A DNA stretch of 20,579 bases from a virus: IMG/VR virus record IMGVR_UViG_3300031774_000203, positions 1 to 20,579 of that record, one strand, 5' to 3'. The notes beneath the pieces were generated by a model. That model searched no databases. It had not been told where the DNA came from and saw only the letters and a program-made list of their open reading frames with translations. The first letter of the stretch is position 1, and every line of letters begins with the position of its first letter. A program made the position numbers and the translations under genes. Shown here piece by piece: positions 999 through 11,510 of this stretch.

Positions 999-1721
999 AT
1001 GGCATTACCTAAATTAAATACCATTGAGTATTTTTGTAAACTCCCTGTTTCTGGAATTGAAGCAAAATACAGACCATTCACTGTAGGTGAACAGAAAGTA
1101 TTACTTCAAGCACTAGAAGATGGAGATACTAAAACAGTATCACATACTGTTATTAATCTAGTGGACTCGTGTAGTACTTTAGAAGAAAACTACACTATAA
1201 AAGACCTAGCAAACACAGACTTGGAGTATTTGTTTTTACAAACTCGTATAAAGTCTGTTGGAGAAAAAACTAAAGTGATTCTTGGTTGTGAGAATCAACC
1301 AGAGTGCGATGGAACAACAGAAGTAGAAGTTGACATCAATGAAATTGAAGTTACTGGTAAAATTGGAGACCCTAAAGTTATGATAACTGATACTGTAGGT
1401 GTTAACTTACGAGTACCTAGTTTCCGAGATGTTACAGATATTATGGGTAAAAAAGCAGAGATAGGTACAGCAGAAATCTTCACCATATTAACTCGTTCAA
1501 TCGAGTCTATATTTGATGAGAACGATGTACATCAGAGAGCAGATTTTACTGACAAAGAGTTACAAGATTTTATTGATGAATTGTCTATAGAACAGTTTAA
1601 TCATATGATGGAATGGTTTCAAGACCTTCCTAAGTTAACAAAGACTGTAGATTATGGATGTAGTAAGTGTGGTCATCCGAATAAGATGCTATTAGAAGGA
1701 ATCCAGAATTTTTTCGCATAG
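999..1721 (+). CDS. 26: gp26-like baseplate hub protein (T4_baseplate family), zero-frame product
   Basis: A 240-aa protein with the hallmarks of the T4 gp26 baseplate family: N-terminal MALPKLNTIEYFCKLPVSG, then YRPFTVGEQKVLLQALE, a helical middle, and a C-terminal part with LSIEQFNHMMEWFQDLP. T4 gp26 is 208 aa. Four cysteines in two pairs (C97 with C103, C221 with C224 in CSKCGH) could bind one zinc. The ATG at 999 has AGGAG about 8 bases upstream. The zero frame stops (TAG 1719-1721) one codon after a T TTT TTC heptamer, and the -1 frame continues 62 codons, so this is probably the short form of a pair made by programmed frameshifting. It precedes a membrane protein and the tape-measure candidate. 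Confidence 0.8.
   Translation: MALPKLNTIEYFCKLPVSGIEAKYRPFTVGEQKVLLQALEDGDTKTVSHTVINLVDSCSTLEENYTIKDLANTDLEYLFLQTRIKSVGEKTKVILGCENQPECDGTTEVEVDINEIEVTGKIGDPKVMITDTVGVNLRVPSFRDVTDIMGKKAEIGTAEIFTILTRSIESIFDENDVHQRADFTDKELQDFIDELSIEQFNHMMEWFQDLPKLTKTVDYGCSKCGHPNKMLLEGIQNFFA
1694..1715 (+). promoter_or_regulatory. Programmed -1 frameshift signal: internal SD plus slippery heptamer
   Basis: The heptamer T TTT TTC (1709-1715) has the X XXY YYZ form in the reading frame of the gp26-like gene. An SD-like AGAAGGA sits at 1694-1700, 8 bases upstream, an arrangement known to stimulate -1 slippage in bacterial dnaX. The zero-frame stop follows at 1719. CCCTTTC at 1722-1728 can pair with GAAAGGG at 1823-1829, a possible long-range stimulatory structure; this last element is less certain. 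Confidence 0.7.
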
Positions 1722-1903
1722 CCCTTTCTCATGAGACACTTGCAAATTACATAAACACAAACTTTGGACTAATCCAACATCATGGATGGTCGTTAACTGA
1801 GTTAGATGATATGCATCAATGGGAAAGGGAAATATATGTTTCCCTTCTCGTTCAACACCTTGAAGAAGAGGAGTTGAAGATGAAACAACAACAGAATAAA
1901 TAA
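1709..1903 (+). CDS. -1 frameshift extension of the gp26-like protein (tail assembly chaperone-like)
   Basis: After slippage at 1709-1715 the -1 frame reads CGC at 1715 and continues to TAA at 1901-1903, adding about 62 residues (RIALSHETLANYINTNFG, then WSLTELDDMHQWEREIY, then a charged tail). The fused product would be join(999..1715,1715..1903), about 301 aa. The extension has no usable start of its own: the frame opens at 1685 after TAA, contains no ATG, GTG or TTG until ATG at 1811, and has no ribosome site before it. The helical sequence with paired aromatic and acidic residues looks coded, not random. The position between a tail gene and the tape-measure candidate matches lambda G/GT and similar tail chaperone pairs. 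Function is inferred from that analogy. Confidence 0.7.
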   Translation, partial: FFRIALSHETLANYINTNFGLIQHHGWSLTELDDMHQWEREIYVSLLVQHLEEEELKMKQQQNK

Positions 1904-1927: not shown

Positions 1928-2311
1928 ATGAGTGATAACAGAGATAGATTTGGTGGAGACATGAGTCGAAACGAAGTCGAAATGGACTTATCGAAGTTTA
2001 TGGAGATGATTCAAGAGAATGGTGCCCTTAAAGATGAGATAAGAGATTTAAAAGCAAACGACACAGTAAATCCATGGCAGAAGTGGGTTCACCTTGCAAG
2101 AACAGTTGATGCATGGAGAATCTGGCCTCGTGCATTCTTAAGTGTTTACATATTCTTAGTGTATTATGCAGCCATCTGGTTCATGGAATTACCAGAACCT
2201 TCAATGGAACAATCTGGTCTTATCAGTATTCTGGTAGGTGCTGGAGCTGCATGGTTTGGACTATATGTTAACTCCGCTGCAAAAGAACATTCGACTAACA
2301 ACGAAAAATAG
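1928..2311 (+). CDS. Two-helix membrane protein, holin candidate
   Basis: A 127-aa protein with a hydrophilic, partly coiled N-terminal half (residues 1-60) and two membrane helices: about 67-87 (AFLSVYIFLVYYAAIWF) and about 96-114 (GLISILVGAGAAWFGLYV), joined by a short acidic turn, with a charged tail. The architecture of a short hairpin of helices with a Trp/Arg-rich entry (DAWRIWPRAF) recalls phage holins of the gene-transfer-agent type, but holins are too diverse to call by eye. The ATG at 1928 has AGGAG 7-11 bases upstream. It sits between the frameshifted tail gene and the tape-measure candidate, an unusual place for a holin in T4-like phages, so a structural membrane role is also possible. 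Confidence 0.5.
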   Translation: MSDNRDRFGGDMSRNEVEMDLSKFMEMIQENGALKDEIRDLKANDTVNPWQKWVHLARTVDAWRIWPRAFLSVYIFLVYYAAIWFMELPEPSMEQSGLISILVGAGAAWFGLYVNSAAKEHSTNNEK

Positions 2312-2323: not shown

Positions 2324-4294
2324 ATGGCAGATGAAGATAAAGGTTTAAGCGAAAAGGAAGCTCAGAATCAGATAAACAAACTCATCACTTCTCTAAGGAA
2401 GTCTACAGCACAGACTACCAAAGGACAAGTTGATGCATTTAAAAGTTTTGAAGAGAGATTAAAAGATGTAGGTGATAAACTTACTGATGAGCAAACTGTT
2501 CGTGCAAAAAGAGCTGCACTATTGGAATCAAGTCTTGGTTTCGATAAAGTATCTGCCATGCAAATTGCAAAAACTACTGAAAAACTAGAAATGGTTAGAG
2601 AAAGATTGTCTGACCTTAAAGAATTAGCAAAAGAAACCAATCAAGAAAATGATGCAGTTTTCAAACAAGAAACAGAAGCACTTATCTTACAAGAAAGACA
2701 ATTAGAAGAACAACAAAAGTTTGGTAGAAATTTAAACAATTTTGAACGAACTGTTGGTAAAACAGCTGGTGGATTGTTCAAGAAAATAGGTGACACTATT
2801 AAAGAAAATGGTTCTTTAACTGCTGGTCAAATTGGTGGTGCATTGAAAGATGATTTAAAAGGTGATTTAGACAAGGTAATGAATCTCTTTGGCCCTCTAG
2901 CTGGTATACTACAACAAATTCCTTTCTTAGGAACTATCTTTAATTTACTTAAGAGAAGTTTTGCATCGATACTTCTTAGGATGACGATGGGTATTAAAAA
3001 CTTTATCACCGAATCCAAAAGAAGGAAAAAGGTAGACCGAACCAACCTTAACGAACAGAAAAAAACAAACAAAAAACTTGAACAAGGGTCTAGAGACAAA
3101 AAGAAAACTGGAGCCAGTACAACTACTGGTCAGCCAGGACAAGAACCAGAATCCCAGATGGAAGGTGATTCTGGAGAAGGTGGATTTGTATTCCAAAAAG
3201 CATCTCTATTCTTAGTAACTGCAGCTGCACTTGGAGCTCCTGCTGGAGCTGCACTTATGACTGTTGCATCTGGTATGACTGCATTTGGTAAGTCTGCATT
3301 TGCAATGGGTAAAGCATTAGTTGTAGGTGGAGCTGCATTTGGTATTGGTCTTACTGGTGTCTTTGGTGCATTTGCATTAGGTCAAAAGATGGGTGCATTC
3401 GAAGGAATGCAAGAGTTTGGTAAGGTTAACATGCTTAAAGTTCTTGGTAGTATGTTAGGTCTTGCAACTCTAATGGGTGTACTAGGTATGATTATGACCA
3501 GTGGTGTTGGTGCATTAATCATGGGTGTTGGTGCATTAGCAGTTATGGGATTAATTGGTGTCTTAGTTGTAGTTGGTAAAGGATTAGGTAACTTTGCAGA
3601 AAGTATTATACCTTTCGAGACTCTCAACATACCAAGAATTAAACAGAACATACAACAGCTTGGTACTATAACTGGTGACATTAGAGAAATATTGTCATCA
3701 ACAAAAGGGTTCTCAATGTCTCAAATTATTGGACAACACCCATTAGAAGACCTTGCAGCTGCAGTTAACATGTATGACCAAGACATGGCAGTTTCTATTG
3801 ATAACCTTACAAAACTTAAAGATTCATTAGCAGGATTTGAATTCCCAGAACTTCCAGAAGGTGAAAAAGGATTTGGTGGATGGATGAGAGGTCTTATTGG
3901 AGAAGATTTCTCTGGTGAACTTAAAAAGTTATCTAAAATAACTCTTACATCAGCACTGGGTGATAATTTACAGAAATTAGGTGATGGATTAGCTGCAATA
4001 GGTGATGGACTAGCTAAGATAACAGACACAAAAGTTAAACACCTTGAAGCAATTGCTGAGGCATTAGAAGATATGGAAGATGTTACAATAAACATTGGTT
4101 CTGTAACACCTAATATTTCTCAACCCATTTCACCAGCAGTAAATGCTATGTTTGGTAATCAACCACAACTGACTCAGATAAATGCACCAACAAATCAAAG
4201 TCAAGTAAATAATATGTCCCAGAAGAGATTTGTTGCATCTGGGTCTAACATGGGTCAACATTCTGCATTGTCATATGCAGGGCAACTTAATTAA
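2324..4294 (+). CDS. Tail tape-measure-like structural protein
   Basis: A 656-aa protein, the longest in the window. Residues about 1-140 are charged and predicted coiled coil (repeated K/E/L pattern, EERLKDVGDKLTDEQTV). Residues about 170-220 are amphipathic. A Lys-rich linker follows (SKRRKKVDRTNLNEQKKTNK). Residues about 290-425 are a long Ala/Gly/Met-rich hydrophobic stretch, and the C-terminal part ends in an Asn/Gln/Ser-rich tail. Coiled coil plus a large hydrophobic centre, straight after a frameshifted chaperone-like gene, is the tape-measure signature. T4 gp29 has 590 aa. A 15-bp direct repeat (3503-3517 and 3524-3538) encodes a repeated GVGAL phrase. No SD precedes the ATG, but GATAAATA lies 5 bases upstream. 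Role is inferred from architecture and position. Confidence 0.6.
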   Translation: MADEDKGLSEKEAQNQINKLITSLRKSTAQTTKGQVDAFKSFEERLKDVGDKLTDEQTVRAKRAALLESSLGFDKVSAMQIAKTTEKLEMVRERLSDLKELAKETNQENDAVFKQETEALILQERQLEEQQKFGRNLNNFERTVGKTAGGLFKKIGDTIKENGSLTAGQIGGALKDDLKGDLDKVMNLFGPLAGILQQIPFLGTIFNLLKRSFASILLRMTMGIKNFITESKRRKKVDRTNLNEQKKTNKKLEQGSRDKKKTGASTTTGQPGQEPESQMEGDSGEGGFVFQKASLFLVTAAALGAPAGAALMTVASGMTAFGKSAFAMGKALVVGGAAFGIGLTGVFGAFALGQKMGAFEGMQEFGKVNMLKVLGSMLGLATLMGVLGMIMTSGVGALIMGVGALAVMGLIGVLVVVGKGLGNFAESIIPFETLNIPRIKQNIQQLGTITGDIREILSSTKGFSMSQIIGQHPLEDLAAAVNMYDQDMAVSIDNLTKLKDSLAGFEFPELPEGEKGFGGWMRGLIGEDFSGELKKLSKITLTSALGDNLQKLGDGLAAIGDGLAKITDTKVKHLEAIAEALEDMEDVTINIGSVTPNISQPISPAVNAMFGNQPQLTQINAPTNQSQVNNMSQKRFVASGSNMGQHSALSYAGQLN

Positions 4295-7831: not shown

Positions 7832-8254
7832 TTAATTTGGTGGGTTGTTATGTTTTCTATGAGTTAATTTCTCTTCCCAGTTTTCTATTGCTTTTTTGAT
7901 TCCTTCTTCTGCAAGAACTGAGCAATGTAATTTGATTGGTGGTAGTTCAAGAGCCTCTGCAATATCTTTATCTTTAATTTGTTTTGCTTGTTCAATTGTT
8001 CTACCTTTGAGCATTTCAACAAACATGGTTGATGATGCGATAGCAGAACCACATCCATAAGTTTTGAATTTGACATCTTCTATAGTGTCTCCATCCATCT
8101 TGAGGTCTAGTTTCATAACATCACCACATGCAGGGGCTCCAACCATACCTGTTGCAACATTAGGGTCTTTGGGGTCAAACCTTCCAACAGAATGCTTCTG
8201 TGGATTCTCTAACACATCATTGAATCTATCTACTACTTTTTTTGAATATGCCAT
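7832..8254 (-). CDS. iscU: IscU/NifU-N type Fe-S cluster scaffold protein
   Basis: IscU is the scaffold on which [2Fe-2S] clusters are built by IscS and then passed on by HscA/HscB. The 140-aa protein is close to E. coli IscU (128 aa): GMVGAPACGDVMKLDLKM, FKTYGCGSAIASST, and ELPPIKLHCSVLAEEGIKKA. All ligand residues are present: C43, D45, C68, H110 and C111, and the HscA recognition motif LPPVK appears as LPPIK. A short insert near residues 12-24 and a C-terminal His/Asn tail are the main differences. It lies between the nuclease gene and gene 33. A TATAAATA box at 8336-8343 could give late expression. No other Fe-S genes are seen here, so it would have to work with host IscS or a phage client. 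Confidence 0.95.
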   Translation of the reverse strand: MAYSKKVVDRFNDVLENPQKHSVGRFDPKDPNVATGMVGAPACGDVMKLDLKMDGDTIEDVKFKTYGCGSAIASSTMFVEMLKGRTIEQAKQIKDKDIAEALELPPIKLHCSVLAEEGIKKAIENWEEKLTHRKHNNPPN

Positions 8255-9356: not shown

Positions 9357-9875
9357 TTATTGAACTGGGTGATAATATTCCATATCTCCATGCATATCCC
9401 AGTTAAAGTTAATAGTTATTTTACGAGCATGAACTGGGTCACACTTGTGAGGTTGCATGGAAGGAAACAATACTACTTCACCCTCTTTAATAGGTGTTTC
9501 ATATCCTTCTATGTTTGTATAATCTCTTTCATCTTCAAGTAGTAGATGTACTACTCCTGCCATGTTTGCAAGGGAATGAGTATGATGTATGTATTCACCA
9601 CCATCATTATATTGATGACACCAGATAGTTTGTATTTCATAAGCATTACAATTCCATGATTCAACATATGATTGAATAGGATGATGTATCATTCTCATTA
9701 CGATATCAAAATACTCTTTGGATTTTGGTGAGTTTGTTCTTCCAGTAAATGATGGGTCTTTTACATTGTAATCCCCATATAACATTTTTTCTTTATGACC
9801 ATTACCAAATTTGGTAATAAAATCATCACGAAGTTTTGGAAAATCAATTATAGGGTATGATTGTACATATTCCAT
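9357..9875 (-). CDS. 2OG-Fe(II) oxygenase-like protein (type with HxH)
   Basis: A 172-aa double-stranded beta-helix protein resembling the 2OG-FeII_Oxy_5 group common in marine phages. Likely metal and cofactor residues are H98 and H100 in YIHHTHSLANMAGVVHLL, H143 in GEVVLFPSMQPHKC, and R151 in ARKITINFNWD. The first motif is H-x-H where classical enzymes have H-x-D, as I recall for this subgroup. The substrate is unknown; related phage proteins have been suggested to modify nucleic acid or protein. It starts within TAATG shared with the stop of the upstream gene. A second, classical oxygenase lies in the same operon (10986-11510). Confidence 0.75.
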   Translation of the reverse strand: MEYVQSYPIIDFPKLRDDFITKFGNGHKEKMLYGDYNVKDPSFTGRTNSPKSKEYFDIVMRMIHHPIQSYVESWNCNAYEIQTIWCHQYNDGGEYIHHTHSLANMAGVVHLLLEDERDYTNIEGYETPIKEGEVVLFPSMQPHKCDPVHARKITINFNWDMHGDMEYYHPVQ

Positions 9876-10985: not shown

Positions 10986-11510
10986 TTATACCTCGTTAAA
11001 CATATATGTCAACCCCATTCTTGGGTAAGGTGCATTAGAACTGACAAGTCCAGCACGATGTTCTATTCGACCATCAAATATAACCATGCTTCCACCTTTA
11101 GGTAATTGACAATGTATTACCTCATCTTTATCATAGAAGAATGTTTCACCACCCCAATTCCAATTCCAATCTGGATTTAGATAACATATTACAGTGTAAT
11201 CTGCTCTATCAGTATGGATGCATGAATTATCTCCATGTTGAAATAGATTGATATATGCAACCTCTGGAAATAAATTGATTGTGGTGCAATCTAACTTTTC
11301 TATGATTTGTGGTCTGATAATGTCCCATATAGGTTTCCATCCTAATCTAACATCTATGTGTTCATCTGGAAACCACAATGGTTTACCCCAAGTTTGTACT
11401 TCTGTATTGTCATCATCAACTGACTGCATCTTTTTTACATATTCATATTCAAGGAATTGTTTGTAAAAAGGAACACAATCAAATGCGTTGTTTTCAATTC
11501 GAATCTTCAA
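10986..11510 (-). CDS. 2OG-Fe(II) oxygenase (prolyl 4-hydroxylase-like)
   Basis: A 174-aa oxygenase that should use 2-oxoglutarate, O2 and Fe(II). The canonical triad is visible: H99-T-D101 in SCIHTDRADYTVICYL, and H151 in IFDGRIEHRAG. R164 in PRMGLTYMF is placed to bind 2-oxoglutarate. The WGGETFFYD strand between them is typical of P4H-like enzymes. The length suits a single domain. The substrate is unknown; phage relatives may hydroxylate protein or modify DNA. Its start lies 17 bases inside the upstream coiled-coil gene. It is clearer than the H-x-H homologue at 9357-9875. Confidence 0.88.
   Translation of the reverse strand: MKIRIENNAFDCVPFYKQFLEYEYVKKMQSVDDDNTEVQTWGKPLWFPDEHIDVRLGWKPIWDIIRPQIIEKLDCTTINLFPEVAYINLFQHGDNSCIHTDRADYTVICYLNPDWNWNWGGETFFYDKDEVIHCQLPKGGSMVIFDGRIEHRAGLVSSNAPYPRMGLTYMFNEV

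Follow-up and report, generated by a model that had tools for sequence, protein, structure and literature searches.

In a 20,579-nucleotide stretch of DNA from a marine T4-like virus, the whole of which (IMG/VR record IMGVR_UViG_3300031774_000203) we refer to as the window, a homologue of T4 gp26 and a gp51 domain lying in the overlapping −1 frame very probably constitute a tail assembly chaperone pair of the lambda G/GT type, gp26 and gp26-gp51, with the longer partner made by a −1 frameshift predicted from the nucleotide sequence. By direct reading, the gp26 ORF occupies positions 999-1721 of the plus strand (240 aa, ATG to TAG), and its zero-frame 3′ end is AAT TTT TTC GCA TAG. T TTT TTC at 1709-1715 is an X XXY YYZ heptamer in phase, with Phe codons at the P and A sites. 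Eight nucleotides 5′ of it is the Shine-Dalgarno (SD)-like sequence AGAAGGA (1694-1700), a likely frameshift stimulator, and the gp26 stop TAG (1719-1721) follows one codon 3′ of the heptamer. The −1 frame extends over 1715-1900 and ends with TAA at 1901-1903, giving the 62 residues RIALSHETLANYINTNFGLIQHHGWSLTELDDMHQWEREIYVSLLVQHLEEEELKMKQQQNK. Its earliest ATG is codon 33 and is preceded by neither GTG nor TTG, so that the gp51 domain (1715-1903) is predicted to be reached by frameshifting only. The resulting gp26-gp51 fusion (999-1903) would comprise 239 + 62 = 301 aa, with GIQNFFRIALSH... spanning the junction. The 240-aa product would be the short form (TAC-N, the lambda gpG equivalent) and the fusion the long form (TAC-NC, the lambda gpGT equivalent), the latter also on account of its T4 gp51-like architecture. 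An earlier note on this DNA had described the heptamer, the SD-like element, the stop, the 62-codon frame, its start codons and a product of ~301 aa, and all of these details proved correct on re-reading.

Both halves of the predicted fusion belong to known T4-like families. The window gp26 matches Pfam family PF12322 (T4_baseplate) with an E-value of 4.9e-51 and 173.9 bits (Pfam curated cut-off: 24.5) over profile positions 3-219 of 219, and it matches phrog_150 with an E-value of 1.2e-53; the assignment of the upstream protein to the gp26 family in the earlier note is thus confirmed. Using hmmscan, we found that the 62-residue −1 product matches phrog_634, annotated as 'baseplate hub assembly catalyst', which is gp51 (E 1.5e-24), and it aligns with the C-terminus of T4 gp51. 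We conclude that the heptamer joins gp26 to gp51. The extension had been described as tail-chaperone-like, but it is not anonymous, since it is the product of a known T4-like gene. The profile match together with the coding pattern described below rules out a chance ORF. A search of NCBIfam gave no match, and neither gp26 nor gp51 matched a lambda-type family in the libraries searched.

The site and the frame are conserved far beyond the window. Searching phage genomes by tblastn returned 705 records with gp26 and, at E-values up to 1, 508 with the extension. In the records common to both lists, gp51 similarity sets in ~3 bases before gp26 similarity ends, which puts it in the −1 frame, as in the window. 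Loss of the heptamer or of the −1 frame in close relatives was the outcome that the earlier note had named as counting against a frameshift. We looked for it in the 11 IMG/VR relatives nearest to the window, the most distant at 67% gp26 identity, and all of them retained the TTTTTTC heptamer together with AGAAGGA, the stop and the open −1 frame. After dereplication of 278 loci to 183 by shared 5-mers, an in-frame T TTT TTN within the last 12 gp26 codons, accompanied by an open −1 gp51 frame, was present in 179 homologues, a rate of 98% that applies to the group from which the locus queries came and not to all T4-like phages. With clustering at 70% identity, 122 of 126 clusters had the heptamer and the −1 frame. 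Far from being particular to this phage, the arrangement is the rule in cyanophages and their relatives. Among the 179 heptamers, TTTTTTC occurred 124 times, TTTTTTT 43 times, TTTTTTA 11 times and TTTTTTG once; the gap between heptamer and stop was 3 nt in 130 and 0 nt in 27 of these relatives.

The slippery site is under selection beyond the protein sequence, as judged from codon usage. Over the rest of the gp26 genes, TTTTTT in heptamer phase was found only 26 times in 39,707 codon positions, and its presence near the gene end in 179 of 183 homologues is thus far from chance. The codon before the Phe pair encodes Ser, Asn, Asp, Ala, Gly or Thr, and its third base was T in 179 of 179 loci, compared with 107.6 (s.d. 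6.1) expected from each gene's own codon use; on the same basis, the first Phe codon was TTT in 179 of 179 loci against 125.6 (s.d. 5.6) expected, both tests being conditional on the presence of the heptamer, which only four loci are without. As second Phe codon, TTC was used in 124 of 167 cases (~50 expected). Downstream, the −1 frame had no stop codon in the 50 codons past the gp26 stop across the 179 loci, compared with 886 and 951 stops in the other two frames, and differences between close pairs fell mostly on the third codon position of the −1 frame (4478, against 1690 and 848 on the other two). The earlier proposal of a programmed −1 frameshift thus gains support, at the level of sequence, from the conserved site, the selection acting on it and the open −1 frame.

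We also analysed the surroundings of the heptamer for stimulatory elements. In the 179 relatives, the 21 nt 5′ of the heptamer paired with the anti-SD sequence at a mean of −6.59 kcal/mol, versus −5.05 kcal/mol after synonymous randomisation (paired difference: −1.54 kcal/mol, s.e. 0.14; control stretches elsewhere: −2.01). The SD-like element is therefore stronger than the protein sequence demands. RNA 3′ of the heptamer was on average more stably folded in the relatives than dinucleotide shuffles (mean z ~−1.1; controls −0.04 to −0.30), with the stems in differing registers. In the window itself no strong downstream structure was detected (z −0.88), and we rejected a conserved downstream stem-loop as a required element there on the basis of this value and the varying stem positions among relatives. 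Strong hairpins are predicted ~5 nt past the slippery site in loci such as L132, L103, L172 and L257, again in registers that differ by lineage. Such lineage-specific hairpins may stimulate frameshifting; in the lineage of the window they are weak or missing.

Phage T4 provides another view of the same pair. T4 genes 26 and 51 are separate, divergent neighbours. T4 gp51 (249 aa) matches PF12322 over residues 1-201 (E 3.9e-52) and phrog_634 over residues 147-246 (E 1.2e-23), and in the alignment T4 gp26 ends, and T4 gp51 runs on, at the position of the slip site. T4 gp51 is thus a gp26-like domain with an in-frame gp51 tail, and T4 encodes the short form (gene 26) and the long form (gene 51) separately, whereas the window has a single locus with a −1 site predicted to yield both. 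Alignment of the locus over all 14 divergent sequences revealed no conserved stretch, and closer subsets were used instead. T4 gp26 (positions 2306-2929 of locus L028) also has a weak match to phrog_1140, the baseplate hub distal subunit gp28 (E 9e-4), and gp28 might, judging from this profile match, be a distant relative of gp26.

T4 gp26 and gp51 have been classed as hub assembly chaperones, and gp51 is not found in the virion (PMC3004832). The earlier note held that T4-like gp26 is not usually described as a frameshifted chaperone. Papers citing Vladimirov, Gautam & Davidson (2022, Virology 566:9-15) indicate that it already has been: according to PMC10885494, that study identified T4-like tail assembly chaperones, some T4-like phages encoding the short form and a fused long form in two genes in place of frameshifting, and PMC12846349 credits it with poly-T slippery sequences in T4-like TAC-N genes. 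As cited there, these chaperones have a short form and a long form composed of the short domain and a downstream tail, as in the window, and the description fits genes 26 and 51, in agreement with the T4 architecture found here. With T4-like chaperones and poly-T sites already published according to these papers, the window pair is a further, well-supported case and not new in kind.

A structure model of gp26 points in the same direction. AlphaFold2, supplied with 64 gp26 sequences, gave a model with a mean pLDDT of 92. Foldseek found no PDB match with E < 0.001; its third match was the HK97 tail assembly chaperone 2OB9 (gp13), with an E-value of 0.46 and a probability of 0.90. In a second structure comparison only three PDB entries reached Z ≥ 2, namely 2OB9 (Z 7.2, in the range that the comparison tool calls common), 3FGX (Z 6.7) and YqbN, 3KLU (Z 6.4), all matching the N-terminal domain of the model within residues 1-97, 2OB9 over residues 1-87. 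YqbN and 3FGX are of the Bacillus XkdN-like tail chaperone type. A Z-score of ~7 is weak alone but becomes meaningful support, if not proof, when all listed entries are of one kind. The N-terminal domain of gp26 thus appears to resemble the tail assembly chaperone fold, the match being moderate: gp26 is about twice as long as these three proteins, its second half is not covered by them, and identity is 5-9%. At the sequence level, the gp26 profile had no match in the PDB. Together with the gp51 tail and the T4 architecture, this resemblance supports the earlier suggestion that the T4_baseplate-family protein acts in a chaperone pair.

Could gp51 instead be a separate small protein, translated by re-initiation past the gp26 stop, with the heptamer being incidental? 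GenBank gives cyanophage gp51 its own short ORF, T4 genes 26 and 51 are separate, and in Vibrio phage D509 (L023, 2133-2330) and Dickeya phage Ds25CZ (L027, 2295-2453) the heptamer is missing and the gp26 stop overlaps the gp51 start in TAATG. Moreover, 46 of 179 relatives have an ATG within 10 codons in or before the gp51 frame, nine of them with a stop/ATG overlap, which would allow gp51 to be made separately there as well. However, in the window and its closest relatives codon 33 is the first ATG, GTG or TTG and lies deep in the conserved domain, the conserved part of which begins upstream of the gp26 stop. Re-initiation also has no need of a heptamer, yet the heptamer is kept against codon bias in all 179 loci, and the separate T4 gene 51 encodes a complete fusion of a gp26-like part and gp51. 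We therefore regard re-initiation as the source of gp51 in the window as very unlikely.

Slippage of the transcribing polymerase on the T run, rather than of the ribosome, could in principle produce the same long form, the run being homopolymeric and reaching TTTTTTT in 43 of 179 relatives. A run of six T is short for transcriptional slippage. In the window, as in 124 of 179 relatives, a C ends the run after only six T, and the bias towards TTC at the second Phe codon (124 of 167, the remainder TTT) indicates that the run is kept short. The selected SD-like element upstream acts on ribosomes. Transcriptional slippage is thus even less probable than re-initiation. A frame error in sequencing or assembly that split one gp26-gp51 gene is the least credible explanation and practically negligible: a continuous form does exist in the in-frame T4 gp51, but several hundred contigs and isolate genomes independently show the identical phase, mostly with the stop 0-3 nt past the heptamer, and this repetition in relatives rules out an assembly error. 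Ribosomal frameshifting remains the preferred reading.

Outside the group with the heptamer, other arrangements occur. Erwinia phage Cronus is similar to T4. In D509 and Ds25CZ, the missing heptamer and the TAATG overlap suggest that the chaperone tail may be made on its own. It is conceivable, though we hold this with some doubt, that there are three or more routes to the short/long pair: −1 frameshifting in most marine and related phages, duplication and in-frame fusion in T4 and Cronus, and, in some vibriophages and Ackermannviridae that have lost the slippery site, a gp51 started at TAATG. If true, the last route would provide a free tail domain and be an exception to the required linkage of tail and short domains.

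The neighbouring genes are consistent with a role in tail assembly. Directly upstream of gp26, a tail tube-like protein is encoded at 359-982 on the plus strand (phrog_45, tail tube, E 1.4e-25). The 656-aa protein encoded at 2324-4294 (plus strand) is probably the tape measure protein and the expected client of the chaperones, on the basis of its position, which is that of the 'putative tail tape measure' of HTVC008M, and of its hydrophobic profile with a long hydrophobic stretch at about residues 290-425; BLAST found no real similarity between it and the HTVC008M protein. Between gp51 and this gene, 1928-2311 (plus strand) encodes a 127-aa protein that matches phrog_10198 (unknown function) and has two hydrophobic segments, the second of them marginal and the other clear. 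BLAST against HTVC008M detected no similarity for it, though a protein of similar size occupies the same place there. Further along, the minus strand encodes an IscU/NifU-type iron-sulfur cluster scaffold at 7832-8254 (PF01592, E 2.3e-39) and two 2OG-Fe(II) oxygenase-like proteins at 9357-9875 and 10986-11510, the second of which exceeds the Pfam cut-off.

The conservation of site and frame, the identity of both halves, the T4 architecture and the fold resemblance were computed, and from them we infer the slippage itself, its rate and the binding partners of each product. The majority of ribosomes would terminate at TAG (1719), yielding the short chaperone. The others, a minority held up at the internal AGAAGGA, would slip by −1 on T TTT TTC, both Phe-tRNAs re-pairing on TTT, and continue in the gp51 frame to produce the 301-aa gp26-gp51. 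In this model, both forms would coat the tape measure protein and depart before completion of the tail, and the gp51 part would recruit components of the tail tube or the baseplate.

A short/long chaperone pair is used by lambda and most long-tailed phages. The lambda G and GT genes sit between the tail tube and tape measure genes, and lambda slips on a different heptamer. Like the pair proposed here, lambda gpG/gpGT consist of a short product and a C-terminal extension in the −1 frame, generated by low-level slippage near the gene end, and they serve as tape measure chaperones (PMC5009743); both bind the tape measure protein, and the T part recruits the tail tube protein (PMC5009743). By analogy, the gp26/gp26-gp51 pair should act as a tail assembly chaperone.

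In cyanophages and marine vibriophages, gp51 is without the N-terminal ~200 residues found in other T4-like gp51s (Sullivan et al. 2010, PMC3037559), and our sequence comparisons suggest that frameshifting provides exactly this part from gp26. The gp26-gp51 loci of cyanophages and pelagiphages (S-SM1, S-T4, HTVC008M and others) are like the window in heptamer type, phase and gene order; their records annotate gp51 as an independent short ORF, whereas the lineage of the window is without even that internal ATG. In GenBank records such as those of S-MbCM6 (L001) and S-T4 (L015), gp51 is either unannotated or begins at an internal ATG, and records of this type look like annotation errors due to the frameshift.

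What our findings add to the earlier work on T4-like chaperones is how widely the arrangement is conserved, numerical evidence that the site is under selection, and an interpretation of the short cyanophage gp51. They correct the annotation of ocean viruses that are very abundant as a group: in some 500 phage records, the short gp51 genes shown as 'separate' would mostly be the tail of a frameshifted gp26.
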